Source: a virus. From it: a stretch of DNA of 29,648 nt. Below the pieces are notes generated by a model. That model was given only the letters and a program-made list of their open reading frames with translations, was not told where the DNA came from and ran no database searches. Shown here piece by piece: positions 2,891 through 23,671 of the stretch (positions within the stretch are counted from its first letter, which is position 1; each line of letters starts with the position of its first letter). The position numbers were made by a program, and so were the translations under genes. Location: the IMG/VR virus record IMGVR_UViG_3300020032_000002, positions 1 to 29,648 of that record, one strand, 5' to 3'.

Positions 2891-3289
2891 ATGAATAATA
2901 AATACATGCATAAAAAAGGAATTGTTTATCTAAATCAATATCATATAGTATTTTGTCCTAAATACAGACGTAAGGTATTAGTTGGAGATATAGAGAAAGA
3001 TTTAAGGCAAATATTTTATGATATAGCTAAAGAGAAAGATGTTGAAATAAAAGCATTAGAAATAATGCCAGACCATGTTCATATGTTTATAAGTTTCGAT
3101 CCACGACAACATTTGCACAGTTTAGTACGATATTTTAAAGGAACAAGTAGTAGAATTTTAAGAGAAAAATATCCTGAATTAAGAAGTAGAATCCCTTCAC
3201 TTTGGACACGAAGTTATTTTTGCTGTACTGTTGGATACGTAAGCGAAAAAGCAATACAAAAATATATAGAAAATCAAAAGAATGTATAG
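2891..3289 (+). CDS. tnpA: TnpA, Y1 HUH transposase of IS200/IS605 family
   Basis: 132 aa, normal length. The HUH motif is H62-V-H64 (MPDHVHMFI) and the nucleophile tyrosine is Y125 in KYIENQ, with Q129 one turn later as in the family. TnpA works as a dimer on single-stranded DNA, recognises the subterminal hairpins and cuts and rejoins DNA through 5'-phosphotyrosine links. ATG 2891 follows GGTGGTGG; the initiation region lies within alternative hairpins, implying low expression. tnpB starts 14 bases after the stop. Confidence 0.97.
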   Translation: MNNKYMHKKGIVYLNQYHIVFCPKYRRKVLVGDIEKDLRQIFYDIAKEKDVEIKALEIMPDHVHMFISFDPRQHLHSLVRYFKGTSSRILREKYPELRSRIPSLWTRSYFCCTVGYVSEKAIQKYIENQKNV

Positions 3290-3303: not shown

Positions 3304-4365
3304 ATGAAATTAACAGTTAAATTTAAAATACTACTAAGTAAAGAACAAGAACAATATTTAGAGCAAACTTTAAATGAATATATAAATACTGTAAATAATA
3401 TAGTTCAAATTATGATTAATGGACACACAAAGCTAACCTCAAAAGATATTAAAGCTAATCTACCAAGTGCAGTAAAAAACCAAGCCATAAGAGATGCTAA
3501 AAGTGTTTACAGAAAATATAAGAAAACCGACAAATTACCAATACTGAAAAAACCAGTATGCATATGGAATAACCAAAGTTATAAAATAAATGATTATTTA
3601 AGTTTTCCAGTTATGATTAATGGTAAATCCCAAAGAATAAAAGTTAAAACTATACTAACAGATTATCAAAAACAACAATTAAACAACAAATTAGGCACAT
3701 TAAGAATAACTAAAAAATCGGGTAAATGGATAGCACAAATATCTGTAGATGTACCAGAAAAACAAAACAATGATACAGAAATAATGGGTGTAGATTTAGG
3801 TTTAAAAGTACCAGCAGTAGCGGTGACAAGCAACGGCAAAACAAAATTTTTTGGTAATGGCAGACAAAATAAATATATTAGGCGTAAATATAAGTCACTA
3901 AGACAAAAGCTAGGTAAAGCTAAAAAGCTAAAAAAAATTAAACAAATAGGCAACAAAGAACAAAGATGGATGAAAGACCAAGACCATAAAATAAGTAGAC
4001 AGATAGTTAATTTTGCTAAAGAAAATCATGTTTCGACAATTCGCCTTGAAAAGTTGGCGAATATCCGAAACACGGCAAGAACAAGCCGTAAAAACGAAAA
4101 GAATTTGCATACATGGTCTTTCTATCGTTTAGCAAAATATATAGAATACAAGGCAAAATTAGAAGGAATAAAAGTAGAATACGTAAATCCAGAATATACA
4201 AGCCAAAAATGTCCTCATTGTGGCACTTTAAATAAAGCGAGAGATAGAAAATATGTATGCAAATCATGTGGATATATAACACATAGAGATAGATTAGGTG
4301 CTATAAATATAATGAAAGCACCTGTGGTAGATGGTGTAGCAAATAGCGATAGTCTGCCAGCCTAA
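3304..4365 (+). CDS. tnpB: TnpB, RNA-guided RuvC-like nuclease of the IS608-like element
   Basis: 353 aa. RuvC residues visible: D164 (MGVDLGLK), E249 (IRLEKLANIR) and D329 (HRDRLGAINI, a variant of the usual DRDxNAAxNI). A zinc ribbon CPHC...CKSC lies before the last motif. TnpB proteins use an RNA from the transposon right end (omegaRNA) to cut DNA next to a TAM, here expected to be TTAC, helping the element persist after excision. SD AGGTGGTG, ATG 3304. All catalytic acids are present although the third motif is atypical. Confidence 0.95.
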   Translation: MKLTVKFKILLSKEQEQYLEQTLNEYINTVNNIVQIMINGHTKLTSKDIKANLPSAVKNQAIRDAKSVYRKYKKTDKLPILKKPVCIWNNQSYKINDYLSFPVMINGKSQRIKVKTILTDYQKQQLNNKLGTLRITKKSGKWIAQISVDVPEKQNNDTEIMGVDLGLKVPAVAVTSNGKTKFFGNGRQNKYIRRKYKSLRQKLGKAKKLKKIKQIGNKEQRWMKDQDHKISRQIVNFAKENHVSTIRLEKLANIRNTARTSRKNEKNLHTWSFYRLAKYIEYKAKLEGIKVEYVNPEYTSQKCPHCGTLNKARDRKYVCKSCGYITHRDRLGAINIMKAPVVDGVANSDSLPA

Positions 4366-4491
4366 GATGCTATATGCACTGTCTTAGGAGGGGTGATGGC
4401 ACACCCTAAACTTTGGGGAACTACGGATACCAGAAATGGACTTCCGACTACCACCAAAGAATCCCCTGACTTTAGTCACGGGGAGTGTCAA
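4366..4491 (+). ncRNA. Candidate omegaRNA scaffold of tnpB (right end)
   Basis: Non-coding 126 bases between the tnpB stop and the element tip. Foldable parts: CTAAG (4362-4366) with CTTAG (4382-4386), then GGGGTG...CACACCC, then the right-end hairpin 4463-4483. By homology with IS200/IS605 elements the omegaRNA would start inside the tnpB 3' end, run to 4491 and use the next about 16-20 bases (from 4492) as guide. Boundaries are inferred. Confidence 0.55.
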
Positions 4492-4531
4492 TAAGTGCAA
4501 AAAATCAAAATCTCATGGAAGTATTGATGAA

Positions 4532-5707: not shown

Positions 5708-5776
5708 ATGTTTAAAATTAAGTGTTGCACATGTAATAATGAATCTGAAATAACCGTAAAAGATAATAGGTTGTAA
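5708..5776 (+). CDS. Tiny Cys-containing ORF, 22 aa
   Basis: ATG 5708 lies five bases after GAGAGTG. Product MFKIKCCTCNNESEITVKDN ends RL; the CCxC start resembles half of a zinc knuckle. It may be a remnant of one of the nearby Cys-rich genes or a real micro-protein. Confidence 0.35.
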   Translation: MFKIKCCTCNNESEITVKDNRL

Positions 5777-5999: not shown

Positions 6000-6248
6000 T
6001 TGCTAGAGGAAAAATGTGAATATTGTAAGTATTATGAAGAAGATTATGACTTAGAGTGTAAAGATTGTAGGGTTGATGATGGATTGGTGAATTATAGTAA
6101 ATTTGAATTAAATGATGAATTAGAAAAACTAATAAATTTAGCAGAGTTTAATTGCTGTGATTGTGAGTTTACTTATTATGAAGAAAATTGCAACTGTAAA
6201 TATGGGGATTTTATCAGAAAACAAGCAAGAAGACTCCCACCTCTTTAG
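6000..6248 (+). CDS. Cys-rich protein, 3' end replaced by a small mobile element
   Basis: TTG 6000 is chosen because AGGAGGT (6084-type SD at 5984-5990) precedes it by nine bases. Cysteine pairs: CEYC, CKDC, CCDC and CNC. The N-terminal and central parts (KCEYCKYYEE, DDGLVNYSKFEL, EFNCCDCE) match the gene at 2567, so these are paralogues with a putative zinc-binding fold. The last 12 residues (IRKQARRLPPL region) are encoded by the inserted 190-bp element that starts near 6215; without it the frame would run on into the downstream flank. Confidence 0.55.
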   Translation: MLEEKCEYCKYYEEDYDLECKDCRVDDGLVNYSKFELNDELEKLINLAEFNCCDCEFTYYEENCNCKYGDFIRKQARRLPPL

Positions 6249-6404
6249 GTGGGAGATGAATTGCTCAAAGGCATTCCCAGAGCAATACAAGTTGCGAGGG
6301 ATAATGGGTGTTTGAACCACCCTTTGAGAATAAGGGTAGTGTAATCTACCAAACTTCTCATGAATCTCCCACTTCTTAGCGAAGCGTAAGTGGGAGAGGT
6401 TCAA
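6215..6404 (+). mobile_element. 190-bp non-autonomous IS200/IS605-type element (PATE-like)
   Basis: Left hairpin 6234-6255 (perfect 9-bp stem, loop CTTT) begins 19 bases from a TTAT target (6211-6214). The right hairpin 6366-6396 is preceded by GAAT (6362-6365) and followed by TCAA (6401-6404), the same guide and cleavage tetranucleotides as the IS608-like element at 2777. No transposase or tnpB inside. The interior has hairpins (6261-6266 with 6280-6285; GGTAG and CTACC near 6334-6350) resembling an omegaRNA-type right end. TnpA from 2891 could act on it in trans. Left boundary is inferred from the 19-base rule. Confidence 0.7.
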
Positions 6405-6412
6405 ATCATGGT

Positions 6413-6589
6413 ATGGAATTAGGTTGTTGCTTAAATATAGTAGAAATATTAAATAATGGTGGTACATTAGATGAAGCTAAAGCAGAAATTCAAAATCAAA
6501 GTCATTCGGGTATGTCTTATGGATTAGTATGTAGTATGGTTAAAGAGTTTTGTGAACGTGGTAAAGAATTCGTTAGCTATGCAAATTAA
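6413..6589 (+). CDS. Hypothetical protein, 5' region disrupted by the 190-bp element
   Basis: From ATG 6413, 58 aa: MELGCCLNIVEILNNGGTL..., SHSGMSYGLVCSMVKEF..., ending SYAN. It reads like a genuine helical phage protein. If the element at 6215-6404 is removed, the frame continues upstream as MGILYHG from ATG 6202, overlapping the end of the Cys-rich gene. No good SD exists for ATG 6413 itself, so the present copy may be poorly expressed or dead. No family recognised. Confidence 0.5.
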   Translation: MELGCCLNIVEILNNGGTLDEAKAEIQNQSHSGMSYGLVCSMVKEFCERGKEFVSYAN

Positions 6590-6685
6590 GAATGGCTATA
6601 TTGCTACGTTACAGAGGTTATGAATTGCGTTAAAACCATTGATTTAAAAGGTTTAATAAAAAATATAATGATAGGAGGTTAAATT

Positions 6686-16315: not shown

Positions 16316-16468
16316 TTATTTTTGGTATTTTTCTCTTACTGCATTTTCAATAAGCCTATTAATTGGAATACCAGTATCCTTACTAATCCCTCTAATAATA
16401 TTCATTAATTCTTCATCAATAGTAGTACTAATTTGTTCTCTATTAACTTTGTTTTTAGGTCTAGCCAT
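16316..16468 (-). CDS. Ribbon-helix-helix DNA-binding protein, 50 aa
   Basis: On the - strand, ATG at 16468-16466, SD TAAGGAGG seven bases upstream, stop TAA at 16318-16316. Product: MARPKNKVNREQISTTIDEE, LMNIIRGISKDTGIPINRLI, ENAVREKYQK. This is a complete RHH (CopG/Arc-type) fold: basic N-terminal arm, beta strand QISTTID, helix A ELMNIIRGISKDTG, turn, helix B PINRLIENAVREKY. RHH dimers bind DNA through the strand pair and usually repress. It is divergent from tnpB inside the same element, with two direct repeats between them, so autoregulation and control of tnpB are likely. Its short length makes it easy to overlook. Confidence 0.85.
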   Translation of the reverse strand: MARPKNKVNREQISTTIDEELMNIIRGISKDTGIPINRLIENAVREKYQK

Positions 16469-16532: not shown

Positions 16533-16556
16533 TATATATAAGGAGGTGAGTTGTCA

Positions 16557-17669
16557 ATGAATATCAGAGAAAAAGCTTATAAGTTCAGATTATGTCCTAA
16601 TAAAGAGCAGAGAATATTAATTAATAAATCAGTAGGGTGTGCAAGATATGTTTACAACCATTTCTTGGCTAAGGCTAAAGAAAATGAATACCAATCATAC
16701 TCTAAATTTTCTAAAGAATTAACTCAACTAAAGAAAGAAATAGAGTGGTTAAAAGAGCCAGATAAATTTAGTTTACAAAATGCACTTAAAGATTTAGACA
16801 GGGCTTTCAAGAATTTTTTTAGTAAAAAATATAGTTTTCCTAAGTTTAAATCTAAGAAGAATCCTAAAAATTCTTATCGTACTAATAAATTTACTAGAAA
16901 AAACGGAACTACCAATATTGAGATAAAAGATAATAAAATCAAATTGCCCAAATTAGGTTGGATTAAATTTAGAAAATCTAAAGAAGTTAAAGGTAAAATA
17001 TTAAATGTTACAGTAACTAGAACTAATACAGATAAATATTACATTTCAATAACAGTTAAAGAAGAAATTGAAGAATTATCTAAAGTAGATAAGCAAGTAG
17101 GGATAGATTTAGGTCTTAAAGAATTTGCTATTATGTCAGATGGTGAGAAGATAGCTAATCCTAGAATATTAAAGCAATATGAGAAAAAAGTTGCTAAGTT
17201 AAATAGAAGTTTAGCTAGGAAAGAAAAAGGAAGTAATAATTGGTATAAAGCTAAAAAGAAATTAGCTAAGGCTCATGAAAAGGTAGCTAATATTAGATTG
17301 GATTTTCTTCATAAATTTTCAACTAAGCTAATTAAGGAAAACCAACTTATAGCAGTTGAAACTTTGAAAGTAAAGAATATGCTTAAAAATTCTAAGTTGG
17401 CTAAATCCATATCAGATGTATCTTGGAGTAAGTTTGTTGAATTACTAACTTATAAAGCGAAATGGTATGGTAGAGATTTAATGAAGATAGACACATTCTT
17501 TGCTAGTAGTCAACTATGTAGTAACTGTGGCTACAAGAATGAAAAAGTTAAAGATTTAAAGGTTAGAAAGTGGGAATGTCCTGAATGTAAATCAGTTTGG
17601 GACAGAGATATTAATGCAAGTATAAATATTTTAAACGAAGGATTAAAAATTAAGGCAAGTACCACTTAG
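16557..17669 (+). CDS. tnpB: TnpB RNA-guided nuclease (IS1341-like type)
   Basis: 370 aa. Helix-turn-helix-like N-terminus (AYKFRLCPNKEQRILINKS), RuvC motif I with Asp in VGIDLGLKEFAI, Glu in IAVETLKVKNM, zinc ribbon CSNC...CPEC and final WDRDINASINIL with its Asp. All catalytic residues are intact, unlike nuclease-dead TnpB-derived repressors. The protein is clearly different from the tnpB at 3304. ATG 16557 gives 8-base spacing from AGGAGGTG; TTG 16551 would be too close. Its omegaRNA would come from the right end of the element. Confidence 0.94.
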   Translation: MNIREKAYKFRLCPNKEQRILINKSVGCARYVYNHFLAKAKENEYQSYSKFSKELTQLKKEIEWLKEPDKFSLQNALKDLDRAFKNFFSKKYSFPKFKSKKNPKNSYRTNKFTRKNGTTNIEIKDNKIKLPKLGWIKFRKSKEVKGKILNVTVTRTNTDKYYISITVKEEIEELSKVDKQVGIDLGLKEFAIMSDGEKIANPRILKQYEKKVAKLNRSLARKEKGSNNWYKAKKKLAKAHEKVANIRLDFLHKFSTKLIKENQLIAVETLKVKNMLKNSKLAKSISDVSWSKFVELLTYKAKWYGRDLMKIDTFFASSQLCSNCGYKNEKVKDLKVRKWECPECKSVWDRDINASINILNEGLKIKASTT

Positions 17670-17772
17670 GATATGTACCGTTGGACTAACGGGAAGTTAC
17701 GCTTAGGAGATATGAGTAGTGGGTACACTCTCAGCCTAAGAATCCTCGGTGGCTTGCCCCGAGGAGGGTCAA
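17670..17772 (+). ncRNA. Candidate omegaRNA scaffold of the tnpB-only element
   Basis: Non-coding right end with possible pairings CTTAGG (near 17666) or CTTAGG (17702-17707) with CCTAAG (17735-17740), GTACC/GGTAC (17676-17680 with 17722-17726), and the terminal hairpin 17744-17764. The guide would begin at 17773, inside the start of the nuclease gene. Extent inferred by family analogy. Confidence 0.5.
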
Positions 17773-17775
17773 TAA

Positions 17776-18605: not shown

Positions 18606-21600
18606 TTGAGGTACAATAATTATCATAGACATGACCATTATAGCAATATTAGAACACCAGATGTCATAGTTAAACCACAGAATTATATTGATAGGGCATT
18701 AGAACTTAGTCATACCACAGTTTTTACTACTAATCATGGTTGCAGTAGTAATGTATTTGAAATGTATGATTTATGTAAAAAAAATGGATTAAAATGCATA
18801 TATGGTATGGAAATGTATTATGTGGATAATAGATTTAAAAAAGATAAAAATAATTACCATATTATTGTAATAGGACTTACTAAAAATGCTTATTACGAAA
18901 TTAATAGAATATCGTCTGAAGCAAATAGAACAGGATTTTATTATTATCCACGTATTGATATGGAATTGTTATTATCTTTGCCCAAAGATGAAGTTGTTAT
19001 TACTACAGCTTGTATAAATAATAGAATTTTTAAAACAGATGATGGTATAGAGTGTTTTTTAATTCCAGTAAAAAAACACTTTGGTAATAATTTTATGTTA
19101 GAAATACAATCACATAATCATCCAACTCAAATAGAATGGAACAAGCAAATATTAAAACTATCTAATAAATATGACATACCTATTATTCATGGAAATGATT
19201 CGCATTATATATATCCACAAGACAAAGAAGATAGGGATTTATTCTTAAAAGGCAAAGGGATGGATTATGGTGATGAGAATAATTTTATATTAGATTATCC
19301 TAATACAGAAATTATTTTTAAAAGATATGAAAAACAAGGAGTTTTAAGTAGGAAACAAGTTGAAACTGCTTTAAAAAATACTTTAATATTTGATAAAGCT
19401 GAAAATTTAAATTTCGATAAAAAATTTAAAATTCCAAGTTTATATCCCAATAAAGATAGCAATAAAATATTAAAAAAAATTTTAGCTAAAAAATGGCTTG
19501 AAGAAAAAGACAAGATACCTGAAGAAAAACACGAGCAATATAAAAAAGCTATTAAAACTGAAATGGATATTATCGAAAAAACAGGTATGGCAGATTATTT
19601 TATATTAAATGAAAAGATAGTAAAAAAAGCAAAAAAAGAATACGGTGGAATATTAACAAGGACAGGTCGTGGTTGTTTTACAAAAGATGCTTTAATAGTT
19701 ACTAAAGAAGATTTAAAAACTATTGATAAAGTTAAAATTGGCGATGAAGTTATTGCAGATGATGGGAAATTTCATAAAGTAATAAATAAGTTTGAATATG
19801 ATATAAATGAAGAATTAATTGAATTTGAATATCAATTACAAGGAAGTAGTAAAAAGAAATATAAAAATATTTGTACTAAAGATCATAAAATATTAGTTAA
19901 AAAAAATGGTAATATAATATATATACCAGCAAATAATTTGAAAGTGGGTGATTTACTATGTTCACCAAAAATTAAAATTAAAGATTATGATAACAACTTG
20001 TATATTGATTTACAAAAATATAATATATATAATTTTCAATATGATGATAAATATATTTATGAAGTTATACCTACAAACAAGGAATATAAATATAGTCCTA
20101 GATGGTTAGAAAAACACAGGATTATGAGTCATAGTTTAGCTAAAAAAATTATAAATGGTCATATTCCATCACGTGTAAGTGGTATAAAACAATTAAAAAG
20201 ATTATTTAAAAACACGCCTTTTAAATCATTAGAAGATTATAGTAAATATTGTAAAAAACATGGATTTATTAGAAGAAAAATTAACAGATATATAAAAAAA
20301 GATTATTTATTTAATTTATTTATTGGTCTTTTATATGCAGACGGATGGACTAATCATGATACTGGCGTAGGACTGGCAATAAATAATAGTAAAGAAAATA
20401 GAAAATTTATATTTAATAAGTATGCTTTTGAAAAATTTGCACAAAGACTAGGTTTTGATAAAAAAGACTTATACTATCATGTAGCTAAAAATGGAAAAAA
20501 TTTAACTCAAATATTTATTAATTCAAAGATTGTATGTAATTGGATTAAAACAGAATATTTTGTATCTAAGAAACATAGAAATAAAATTATAAATACTAAT
20601 TTATTAAATCAAAGCAAGGATAATTTGCGATGGTTATACATAGGGTTGTTAAAATCTAATGGAAGTGTAAATAGAAAAACAAATAAATTGTCATTTGATA
20701 ATACTTCATTATCACTAATAAATTTATTTAAGTTATTAAATAATATTTTAGGATATGAGCCTATGTCATTAGATATTAGATTAAGTCATAAAGATAAAAG
20801 AGGTTATACTAACAAAGAATCATATAAATTAAGAAGACCAATAAACAGAAAAAGAAATATTATTGAAAGTGATAATGAATATTATTATTTACCTATAACT
20901 AAAATTATAAAACATAAAAAGACAAAAACAAAAGTATATGATATATCTGTAGAAGGTAACCCAAGTTATATGATTAATAATATAATAGTACATAATTCGT
21001 CGGTATCTTTTTACATAAACAAATTATTAGGATTTACGGAGATAGATAGACTTGATGCAGAAGTACCTTTATATCCTACAAGATTTATGTCTGTTAGTAG
21101 AATCTTAGAAACACATAGTGCTGCTGACATAGATTACAACACGGCTGATCCAAAACCATTTATTAAAGCTAGTAAGGATATATTAGGTGAAGATGGTATA
21201 TATTATATGGTTGCATATGGTACAATGAAAGAATCGGCTGCTTTTAGAAATTTGTGTCGAGCAAAAGGGTTGAAAATGAGTGAATATAATGATGTAGCAA
21301 AAAACTTAGAATTATATAAAGATAACTTTAAATGGAAAGATTTAATTAAACAATCAGAAAAATATGTCGGTGTAATTGATTCAATATCACCTTCACCTTG
21401 TAGCTTTCTTCTTTTGGATAAACCAATATCAAAAGAAATAGGGCTGATAAGAGTAGGTGATGAAATATGTTGTGCAATAGATGGTTATACAGCCGATGTA
21501 TTTGGATATCTCAAAAATGATTTTCTTACAGTTAAAGTATGGAAAATTATTTCTGATACCTTTAAATTATTAGGAAAACCAATACCAGATATTAAAAGTT

Positions 21601-23066
21601 TAAAAGACTTAATAGATAATAAAGTATGGAAACTTTATGAAGATGGTATTACTGCTACATTAAATCAAGTGGATAGTGAATGGGCTACTGGTTTAGTTAA
21701 AAGGTATAAACCTAAATCAATTGCAGAACTATGTGCTTTTGTTGCATCAATAAGACCTGGCTTTGCTTCATTGTTAGATAATTTTTTAGATAGAAAACCA
21801 TATACAACTGGTGTTAAAGAGTTAGACGAAATATTGAAAGATAGTTTTCATTATATGTTATATCAAGAATCAATTATGAAATATCTAACTTGGTTAGGAA
21901 TAGAAGAAGATAAAACGTATGGGATAATCAAAAAAATAGCCAAGAAAAAGTTTACTCAAAAAGAATTAGAGGAATTAAAAACTAGATTAAGAAATAATTG
22001 GATTGATAGAATTGGTAACGAAAAAGGGTTTAAGAAAACTTGGGAAGTGATTGAAAATTCTGTTTTTTACGCGTTTAATGCCTCGCATAGCTTAAGTGTG
22101 GCATGGGATAGTGTATATGGGGCTTATTTAAAAGCTAATTATCCTTTACAGTATTATAAAGTTGTATTAGATAATTTTGAAAATGATACGGAAGAGACAG
22201 CCAAGATAATAAATGAATTAAAATATTTTAATATTAAATTAAAACCTATTAAGTTTAGATATTCAAGAGCTGAATATTCTTTTGATAAAATACAAAATGC
22301 TATTTATAAAAATTTATCATCAGTCAAATACATGAATCGTAAGGTAGCCGAAGAATTATATGAATTAGGTAAAAATCAGTATAATAATTTTGCAGAATTA
22401 TTAAAAGATATAAATGAAAAAACTTCAGTTAATTCAAAACAATTAGACATATTAATTAAGTTAGACTTTTTTTCAGAGTTTGGCAAGTCTAGAAAGTTAC
22501 TTAATTTTGTAAAATATTTTAATTTAATAAATAATGTAAAAGTTGTTAACAAACAAAAAATAGAAGAAAAATGGTTATATAGTATTATTAAAAATAATTC
22601 ACGAGAAACTAAATCACAATTTAGAGATTTAGATAATAACAAAATATTAGAGCTTATATGGAATGGATTACCTAATAAAGACTTGTCATTACTTGAAAAA
22701 ATACAAACTGAAAAAGAATACTTAGGTTATATAAATTATATTAACCCTAATTTAGATAAAAAATATGTGCTAATAACTAATTTGAACACTAGATATACTC
22801 CTATATTAGATGTTTATTGTTTAAATAATGGTAAAACAGGAACGGTTAAGATTAGCAAGAAAAATTTTAGTTATAAACATATTAAAGAAGGTACAGTACT
22901 ATATATTAATTCAATGAAAAGAAAACATGGATGGAAAAAAGTTGGTGAATATAAAAATGGCAAACCTAAATTCGAACCAGACCATACAAAACAAGAGTGG
23001 TGGATAACTAATTATTCAATAGTACATAATGTAGAAAGTATTATTGAGGAGGTAGCTAATGATTGA
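18606..23066 (+). CDS. DNA polymerase III alpha, DnaE-type, with intein
   Basis: 1486-aa precursor; the extein is 1045 aa, a DnaE-like length. PHP domain at the N-terminus (NYHRHDHYSN; TTNHGC; YGMEMYYV). The pol core starts at TGRG before the intein and SSVSFYINKLLG after it, matching the GRGS loop. Catalytic Asp: D841 and D843 in ADIDYNTADP, D972 in KNDFLTVKVW. C-terminal helix-hairpin-helix and OB-like parts follow. No 3'-5' exonuclease domain is inserted, so this is not PolC. TTG 18606 is five bases after AGGTGGTG. Overlaps the ERCC4-type gene by 8 bases. Replicates the element's DNA once spliced. Confidence 0.92.
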   Translation: MRYNNYHRHDHYSNIRTPDVIVKPQNYIDRALELSHTTVFTTNHGCSSNVFEMYDLCKKNGLKCIYGMEMYYVDNRFKKDKNNYHIIVIGLTKNAYYEINRISSEANRTGFYYYPRIDMELLLSLPKDEVVITTACINNRIFKTDDGIECFLIPVKKHFGNNFMLEIQSHNHPTQIEWNKQILKLSNKYDIPIIHGNDSHYIYPQDKEDRDLFLKGKGMDYGDENNFILDYPNTEIIFKRYEKQGVLSRKQVETALKNTLIFDKAENLNFDKKFKIPSLYPNKDSNKILKKILAKKWLEEKDKIPEEKHEQYKKAIKTEMDIIEKTGMADYFILNEKIVKKAKKEYGGILTRTGRGCFTKDALIVTKEDLKTIDKVKIGDEVIADDGKFHKVINKFEYDINEELIEFEYQLQGSSKKKYKNICTKDHKILVKKNGNIIYIPANNLKVGDLLCSPKIKIKDYDNNLYIDLQKYNIYNFQYDDKYIYEVIPTNKEYKYSPRWLEKHRIMSHSLAKKIINGHIPSRVSGIKQLKRLFKNTPFKSLEDYSKYCKKHGFIRRKINRYIKKDYLFNLFIGLLYADGWTNHDTGVGLAINNSKENRKFIFNKYAFEKFAQRLGFDKKDLYYHVAKNGKNLTQIFINSKIVCNWIKTEYFVSKKHRNKIINTNLLNQSKDNLRWLYIGLLKSNGSVNRKTNKLSFDNTSLSLINLFKLLNNILGYEPMSLDIRLSHKDKRGYTNKESYKLRRPINRKRNIIESDNEYYYLPITKIIKHKKTKTKVYDISVEGNPSYMINNIIVHNSSVSFYINKLLGFTEIDRLDAEVPLYPTRFMSVSRILETHSAADIDYNTADPKPFIKASKDILGEDGIYYMVAYGTMKESAAFRNLCRAKGLKMSEYNDVAKNLELYKDNFKWKDLIKQSEKYVGVIDSISPSPCSFLLLDKPISKEIGLIRVGDEICCAIDGYTADVFGYLKNDFLTVKVWKIISDTFKLLGKPIPDIKSLKDLIDNKVWKLYEDGITATLNQVDSEWATGLVKRYKPKSIAELCAFVASIRPGFASLLDNFLDRKPYTTGVKELDEILKDSFHYMLYQESIMKYLTWLGIEEDKTYGIIKKIAKKKFTQKELEELKTRLRNNWIDRIGNEKGFKKTWEVIENSVFYAFNASHSLSVAWDSVYGAYLKANYPLQYYKVVLDNFENDTEETAKIINELKYFNIKLKPIKFRYSRAEYSFDKIQNAIYKNLSSVKYMNRKVAEELYELGKNQYNNFAELLKDINEKTSVNSKQLDILIKLDFFSEFGKSRKLLNFVKYFNLINNVKVVNKQKIEEKWLYSIIKNNSRETKSQFRDLDNNKILELIWNGLPNKDLSLLEKIQTEKEYLGYINYINPNLDKKYVLITNLNTRYTPILDVYCLNNGKTGTVKISKKNFSYKHIKEGTVLYINSMKRKHGWKKVGEYKNGKPKFEPDHTKQEWWITNYSIVHNVESIIEEVAND
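19674..20996 (+). other. Intein (441 aa) with LAGLIDADG homing endonuclease
   Basis: Residues C357 to N797 of the polymerase precursor. Block A begins CFTKDALIVT; block B is CTKDHKILVKKNG (TxxH); block F/G ends KVYDISVEGNPSYMINN then IIVHN, followed by extein Ser+1. Splicing chemistry residues (Cys1, His-Asn C-terminus, Ser+1) are present. Endonuclease motif 1 is IGLLYADGW (D579 intact); motif 2 is IGLLKSNGS with N685 where the catalytic Asp is expected, so cleavage may be reduced to nicking or lost. Inserted in the conserved GRG/S loop of the active-site region. Confidence 0.93.
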
Positions 23067-23592
23067 AAAATTTAATTATACAGATAAAGAGATTAGTGAA
23101 GTTTTAAAGAGTATAAAAATTCTAATAGATACTAGAGAAAAAAATAATAAACATATTTTAAATTTCTTCGATAATAAAAATATAAAATATAAATTAAAAA
23201 AATTAAATCAAGGTGATTATAGTTTTTATATTCCTAAAAATGGAGAGTTAAATATACTACGTGATTTATACTTTGATAAAGAGATTTGCATAGAAAGAAA
23301 AAATTCTACAGATGAATTAATAAGTAATTTTGCTCAAGATAGAAATAGAATTGAATCAGAGTTTATTAGAAATAAAGGTAAAATGATTTTAATGATAGAA
23401 GATGAAGGTTTTTATAGAAAAATATGTAATGGAATATATAAAAGTAAGTATAGCAAACAATCAGCATTAGGAAGTTATCACTCATTTGTTGATAGATATG
23501 ATCTATTTCCTGCATTTATTGACAAAGAATACTCAGCATTGTTTATATATATGACATTTTATTATTATCTTAGAAATTTTTTAAAACATTAA
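23059..23592 (+). CDS. ERCC4/XPF-type nuclease
   Basis: 177 aa, a single nuclease domain. Motifs: LIDTREKNN (D24), GDYSFYIP (D53), IERKNSTDEL (E79, R80, K81, D85: the ERKxxxD signature) and RIESEF. Such proteins cleave branched or structured DNA, and stand-alone phage versions probably process replication or recombination intermediates. ATG 23059 with AGGAGGT upstream overlaps the polymerase stop by 8 bases, so the two are translationally coupled. No HhH domain is attached, so DNA structure selection may need a partner. Confidence 0.87.
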   Translation: MIEKFNYTDKEISEVLKSIKILIDTREKNNKHILNFFDNKNIKYKLKKLNQGDYSFYIPKNGELNILRDLYFDKEICIERKNSTDELISNFAQDRNRIESEFIRNKGKMILMIEDEGFYRKICNGIYKSKYSKQSALGSYHSFVDRYDLFPAFIDKEYSALFIYMTFYYYLRNFLKH

Positions 23593-23610
23593 CCTAATTA
23601 ACGACAGAAG

Positions 23611-23640
23611 TCGCCCACTTCTATAAGTGGGGGTAGTTCA
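23611..23640. repeat. Possible solo IS200/IS605 end (hairpin)
   Basis: Perfect 7-bp hairpin CCCACTT-CTAT-AAGTGGG (23614-23631) followed by GGTAGTTCA. It lacks a T-run, so it is not a terminator. Stem sequence, size and the following TTCA resemble right ends of clostridial IS605-family elements; no GAAT guide precedes it. Perhaps a decayed end. The 344-base stretch 23593-23936 otherwise holds a promoter, two hairpins and one short ORF. Confidence 0.4.
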
Positions 23641-23671
23641 CAACATTAATAACAAAAATATAAAAAAATAA

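Follow-up and report, generated by a model that had tools for sequence, protein, structure and literature searches.

The window analysed here is the whole 29,648-nt stretch of IMG/VR virus record IMGVR_UViG_3300020032_000002 (29.6 kb). It carries two tnpB genes, encoding TnpB1 (3304-4365) and TnpB2 (16551-17669), a Y1 transposase TnpA at 2891-3289 (Pfam Y1_Tnp), and a DNA polymerase III alpha-like ORF (18606-23066) with an apparent intein (GRG/CFTKDALIV ... YMINNIIVHN/SSVSFY, judged from its translation alone). The subject of this analysis is a 190-bp stretch at 6215-6404, which a preliminary description of the window had proposed to be a mobile element possibly carrying an orphan omegaRNA-like RNA. 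On its left lies TTAT (6211-6214, + strand), the target or transposon-adjacent motif, which also precedes the left end in the related stretches L008, L010, L011, L013, L031, L042, L043 and L050. Nineteen bases (6215-6233) separate this motif from a perfect 9-bp hairpin (6234-6255, +), which recurs ahead of tnpB in a number of plasmids and phages, and the left end (LE) as a whole (6215-6265, +) is identical to the first 51 bases of a 1579-bp parent element (51-base prefix identity; blastn 57/57 with TTTTAT included). Beyond a deletion junction at 6265-6266 (+) come the last 25 codons and the stop of a tnpB (6267-6344, +; KGIPRAIQVARDNGCLNHPLRIRVV), which match the C-terminal end of the 413-aa L008 TnpB exactly and now belong to the putative RNA scaffold. 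The right end (6362-6396, +) is composed of GAAT at 6362-6365 and a hairpin at 6366-6396, and the last four bases of the element are the cleavage-site motif TCAA (6401-6404, +). Directly 3' of the tnpB of Enterococcus phage iF6, a 43-base match to the right end is found.

The coordinates, the IS608-type signals (GAAT, hairpin and TCAA), the left hairpin 19 bases from TTAT and the lack of an encoded protein, save the last 25 tnpB codons, are all as the preliminary description had them. The ends are also fixed independently, because relatives can be aligned over 6215-6265 and 6265-6404 and no further; both boundaries are shared exactly by two full-length parents with different flanks and by one second mini-copy. 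BLAST searches returned 3 phage records (queried with the element and its flanks) and 9 plasmid records (queried with the element alone), each matching the left end or the right end only, and in the 6 of these 12 records that were inspected the left end lies upstream of tnpB or tnpA-tnpB and the right end directly after tnpB. As in PATEs (palindrome-associated transposable elements), there is no transposase gene, for which 190 bp would be too short, and both ends, with their near-terminal palindromes, match those of full tnpB elements; the ends of the element to which the Y1 TnpA of the window belongs are different. The structured interior that had been pointed out is borne out by a predicted RNA fold of -70.2 kcal/mol (z -6.5), which none of 200 shuffles equals and which is stronger than that of any of the 311 stretches of 190 bases sampled from the window (best of those, -59.7). 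The G+C content is 45%, vs 27% for the window. Comparison with the relatives confirms 6215-6404 as a non-autonomous, IS608-like mobile element with exact ends.

The right-end hairpin pattern occurs in six stretches of the viral contig set (viral_contigs), and two of these, L008 and L011, hold a complete 1579-bp element composed of a left end, a divergent 51-aa RHH-domain gene (Pfam RHH_5), a 413-aa TnpB and a right end. The parent is thus a tnpA-less, tnpB-carrying element of the IS200/IS605 type, present in two other phage contigs. Only 4 of 1579 positions distinguish its two full copies, which occupy different sites, each copy following a run ending in TTTTTAT and having flanks of its own, so the parent moved recently. 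The window element consists of the first 51 bases of this parent and its last 140 (one mismatch), which overlap by a single shared T (6265), and the 1389 bp lost between them include almost the whole of tnpB. Since the kept 140 bases open with the last 25 tnpB codons, the interior corresponds to the omegaRNA-encoding stretch of TnpB elements. The alignments therefore identify the 190-bp element as an internal-deletion derivative of the 1579-bp tnpB element, with the left end fused to the 3' end of tnpB. The interior is 99% identical to the tnpB 3' end of L008 and L011, meaning that the deletion is recent, and so the retention of the RNA in the window copy is no proof of selection. We also noticed a small RHH-like gene in each of two different tnpB-only elements (L016, 1254-1409, - strand, called by Pfam RHH_5; window 16316-16468, - strand, called by eye alone), divergent from tnpB and placed between the left end and tnpB, as if a repressor belonged to the element.

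A search for copies in related genomes was among the checks proposed beforehand, and a second copy exists. The junction pattern, with a variable gap, recovered one further copy in viral_contigs, in L010, which has the identical junction, 183 of 190 identical bases, a different left flank and a right flank that is the inside of the RHH gene of a full element. The junction overlap is only one base, so two independent identical deletions are unlikely; one junction at two sites with different flanks leads us to infer that the shortened form itself has moved. Of the seven substitutions between the two mini-copies, three are unpaired, two keep a pair by a single change, and two form a compensatory change from U-A to C-G in stem 3 of the RNA fold given below, so that none breaks a stem. 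The full-length relative whose RHH gene houses the mini-element in L010 (2666-4345) has no left end of its own, the outcome expected if an insertion was followed by recombination between the two identical left ends.

The second copy also bears on the reading that 6215-6404 is an assembly or recombination artefact. Such a reading could appeal to the flanks, which form no single recognisable gene: the right flank (6405-6590) codes for the C-terminal portion of a longer phage protein, with identities of 71% in L110 and 66% in L111, and so matches the inside of that gene, whereas the left flank holds a different, cysteine-rich ORF unrelated to it. An identical junction in another contig with different flanks, and element ends that coincide exactly with the parental ones, make an artefact extremely improbable. 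Possible explanations for the unlike flanks are that the L110/L111-type gene differs in the phage here, or that the element marks a rearrangement breakpoint. With respect to target-site duplication, which PATEs lack, the left flank (...TTTTAT) and the right flank (ATCATGG) are not repeats of each other; an empty site for comparison was not found, and the upstream 70-aa ORF had no relative in viral_contigs or among the phages.

A total of 19 right-end RNAs were aligned, namely those of the window, the L010 mini-copy, L008, the L010 full copy, L009, L013, L014 (as L024), a Mycoplasmatota plasmid (L050) and 11 mini-copies from genomes G030 and G146; L011 was omitted because its RNA equals that of L008. 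The structure tested was named from the window's own sequence. It is composed of stem 1 (6306-6310/6318-6322, +; helix 1), stem 2 (6325-6330/6355-6360) with stem 3 (6335-6339/6346-6350) inside it (6325-6360, +; helices 3 and 4), stem 4, which is the right-end hairpin (helix 5), and a pseudoknot (helix 2) in which the strand in the stem-1 loop (6312-6317) pairs with GTTCAA, the last six bases of the element (6399-6404, +). Across stems 1 to 4 and the pseudoknot, 94.5% of 549 cells are paired, vs 38% to 49% in slid-partner controls. Double-sided changes are seen at 10 of 29 pairs (34 cells), counts that are not independent events since much of the covariation lies between two groups of related sequences; 0 of 500 shuffles scored as high on any of five measures. 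The pseudoknot reads UUGAAC/GUUCAA in the window and GUGAAC/GUUCAC in several G030/G146 copies. A two-part hairpin predicted by folding further 5' (6275-6278/6298-6301 and 6282-6286/6291-6295; 6275-6301, +) lies in a poorly aligned region, where most rows reach a like fold from different bases, and its equivalent is lost or altered in L013 and L047. The DNA ends covary as well: GAAT stands with TCAA in all 7 GAAT rows and GAAG with TCAC in 8 of the 12 others, the remaining four being GAAG/TCGC, AAAG/TTAC, GAAG/TCAT and GAAG/TTAT. In IS608-type recognition, the last base pairs at the DNA level with the fourth base of the guide tetranucleotide, and the contrast between GAAT/TCAA and GAAG/TCAC is as such recognition expects. 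The omegaRNA fold, with stems 1 to 4 and a 3'-terminal pseudoknot, is well supported by this covariation.

A covariance model, R1, was built from 13 of the 19 RNAs, leaving out the window, L008, L009, L010, L011 and L013. On the window it gives 90.6 bits at 6272-6404, and its next best score is 22.2 bits at 23519-23641. The omegaRNA-model comparison that had been proposed as a further check is hence positive with a model built without the element, and the suggestion that the stretch carries an omegaRNA-like RNA sequence stands on the tnpB 3' end joined to a right end, the covarying fold and this score. The position agrees, as 6267-6344 is the parental tnpB 3' end and 6404 the parental right terminus. 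In 391 genomes, R1 identified 36 places in 11 genomes, 12 of which are model members. Eighteen of the other 24 were examined: ten lie at the 3' end of a parent-clade tnpB (37% to 65% identity to L008/L050), two at contig ends where the final 18 residues of such a tnpB remain, one downstream of a partial relative (L114) and one next to a TnpB2-like fragment (L138), while four have no TnpB in the stretch (L117, L121, L128 and L140), two of these (L128 and L140) with a left-end-like hairpin. R1 is therefore a model of the right-end RNA of that clade, and tnpB-less copies exist besides the window's. A search of the whole window against Rfam (E up to 5) gave no match in the element and one chance match elsewhere, and is not decisive. 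A lone GAAG/TTCAC-type right-end-like hairpin without a left end occurs directly after an ORF end at 23600-23641 of the window, inside the 22.2-bit R1 hit, and is probably the remnant of another mini-element or of an IS right end.

When genomes were scanned with a loose pattern, a tnpB 3' end turned up in one clostridial MAG (L014). Among 196 relatives of its genome, 12 have some match, and in two of them, G030 and G146, there are several mini-elements, each about 235 bases long and made up of a left end, the RNA core and a right end. These stem from another tnpB, whose start codon and first codons are kept; in G146 all that was seen of it was a fragment, truncated to 127 codons, behind the same left end, and a search for the parent TnpB in both genomes found only proteins of other elements with about 30% identity and no intact cognate TnpB. 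The mini-elements have more than one junction, since two copies (L102 and L106) keep more of the 5' part of tnpB. The pseudoknot hairpin is lost in L100, L104 and L106, and the left end is absent in some copies (L047). The group (L031, L032, L042, L043, L047, L048, L073, L074, L100-L109 and L140), with 36 and 28 partial matches in G030 and G146, respectively, has the appearance of a decaying family of tnpB-less mini-elements. Most copies have an extended -10-like site ahead of the RNA (TGATAnAAT in 7 of the 10 checked, near-matches in 2 more). For two pairs at apparently orthologous sites, identity is 98.5% and 95.7% in the omegaRNA, 96.7% in the LE part of both, and 96.4% and 92.9% in the left flanks. 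Right-flank identity is 99.2% in the second pair; the 13.5% obtained for the first was discarded as a presumed alignment artefact at a contig end. Better conservation of the RNA than of its surroundings is not clearly seen in these two pairs. In L013 (78-1002), the place of tnpB between a left end and an omegaRNA/right end of this element type is taken by a passenger gene rich in G+C (Pfam Imm5_like), which could reflect cargo capture or chimeric assembly.

The preliminary description had also suggested that the interior resembles the layout of the right ends of the two tnpB elements of the window and that the RNA could program one of their proteins in trans. The resemblance is indeed one of layout (hairpins, AATC, terminal TCAA) and does not extend to the sequence family, since R1 has no match at either right end (4366-4494 and 17670-17775) with filters off and E up to 10, and the interior derives from a third clade: in a multiple alignment, the 413-aa parent TnpB shares about 23% identity with TnpB1 and with TnpB2 alike. 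The Pfam Cas12f1-like_TNB scores are 85.8 bits for TnpB1 and 84.5 for TnpB2 vs 43.4 for the parent protein, which is without the usual Zn-ribbon cysteines, has GD instead of the others' E at the second RuvC motif and has an E preceding the YTS motif. Rearranged active sites of this kind occur in the TnpB literature. TnpB1 and TnpB2 were thus rejected as leading partners; although they share genome and strand with the element and have a similar general right-end layout, we regard their programming by the orphan RNA as very unlikely in view of the low identity, the silence of R1 and the differing domain scores. With the window's proteins this distant and their right ends unseen by R1, any partner probably comes from another element in the same cell. 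A parent-type TnpB was not found in the 29.6-kb record, which may be a fragment, and the likely candidate is one encoded on a co-resident element.

The presumptive guide is the flanking phage DNA at 6405-6424 (+), directly after the right end, beginning at 6405 as had been proposed; it is assigned by its position relative to the right end, following published TnpB biology. In viral_contigs, TTTAT followed by the flank was not found, and no sequenced target came to light. A promoter-like site was not found inside or just upstream of the window element; the nearest + strand candidates upstream are weak, at 5711-5740. TnpB makes omegaRNA by 5' processing of its own mRNA, according to the relevant part of PMC10278001, and processing from a read-through phage transcript is therefore plausible here, as the larger ORFs to the left and right of the element are encoded on the + strand. 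In the mechanism that we propose, the 190-bp element would be mobilised in trans by the Y1 transposase TnpA of another element. Read-through transcription of the phage + strand would yield an RNA with the scaffold followed by the adjacent DNA from 6405 onward as guide, which a parent-type TnpB from a co-resident full-length element would process. The loaded TnpB would then cut insertion-free copies of the site (TTTAT and guide), and through this borrowed cutting the mini-element would gain the retention advantage of TnpB without the cost of the protein.

Our favoured reading, which we hold with somewhat better than even confidence, is that the element is a PATE derived from the 1579-bp tnpB element, with an RNA used together with a parent-type TnpB in trans. 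Within it, the element, its parentage and the omegaRNA fold are well supported, and the making and use of the RNA in trans is reasonable but unproven. The main and serious rival, to which we would give about one chance in three, is a passive PATE: TnpA would mobilise the deletion derivative in trans, and the omegaRNA, left over because it overlaps the right end, would be inert. The near identity of the window copy to its parent requires no selection, the G030/G146 mini-elements persist without a detectable intact cognate TnpB, some with RNA stems lost, and the Haloquadratum PATEs described in PMC3119063 include 52-bp terminal-only forms. A passive remnant accounts less readily for the 140 bases kept, vs about 45 bases in the right-end hairpin region, for the compensatory stem change between the two mini-copies, for deletion derivatives of two different tnpB parents both keeping ends and omegaRNA, and for the corresponding unit kept in the PATE-like element of Halanaerobium as reported in PMC7290912. 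More tentatively, and in our judgment as a rather doubtful extension of the trans-acting reading, guide-only micro-elements, formed by deletion from several tnpB lineages, might be recurrent TnpB satellites in clostridia and their phages that keep exactly ends and omegaRNA, spread between phages and turn a parent-type TnpB, acting in trans, against insertion-free phage copies for homing or exclusion.

The 190-bp element, whose parent is known and of which a sister copy exists, is a natural minimal case for asking whether TnpB serves elements that do not encode it. If it does, TnpB would be a shared good exploited by non-coding elements, which bears on why PATEs are so common and on how guide-RNA genes become nuclease-free, which the passage from TnpB to CRISPR-Cas12 requires. 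If it does not, the element is a clear case of an omegaRNA fossil. Stand-alone trans-acting omegaRNAs have reportedly been observed for IscB/TnpB-type systems, with a guide RNA locus that has no nuclease gene nearby. Our search for a tnpB-less omegaRNA phage element by title and the start of the abstract found none, which says little on novelty as subscription journals are thinly covered there; none of the terms MITE, non-autonomous, PATE, orphan and in trans appears in PMC12558985.

In the portion of PMC10097598 considered here, the ISDra2 omegaRNA is described as a scaffold of about 116 nt that overlaps the tnpB 3' end and contains stems 1 to 4, with a pseudoknot between a strand of the stem-1 loop and GUUCA before the guide (bases -6 to -2); 5' trimming to -116 kept its activity intact. 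The stem-1-loop pseudoknot, the nested stems 2 and 3 and the right-end stem 4 are common to this RNA and that of the window, whereas the ISDra2 RNA comes from an intact tnpB locus, the window element has no tnpB, and the stem sequences differ. The kept 140 bases start upstream of stem 1 (-99), so that the ISDra2-like core is apparently not missing. As an element, the 190 bp are nearly equal in architecture to the PATE-like element of Halanaerobium hydrogeniformans (28 left-end bases, the last 58 of the tnpB ORF and the whole right end; about 271 bases), which differs, in the account available from PMC7290912, in being a single chromosomal copy with another tnpB and other ends and is given no RNA analysis there. 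The PATEs of Haloquadratum walsbyi are, in the sections of PMC3119063 that deal with them, likewise transposase-free and short with IS605-type near-terminal palindromes, several having arisen by core deletion of a tnpB element. Those are haloarchaeal, predate the omegaRNA concept and come with no RNA structure in these sections, in contrast to the phage element, which keeps a complete covarying omegaRNA scaffold. Hence PATEs of matching anatomy are known already, and what sets the window element apart from these is that the retained part is a complete covarying omegaRNA scaffold, and that it is found in a phage.
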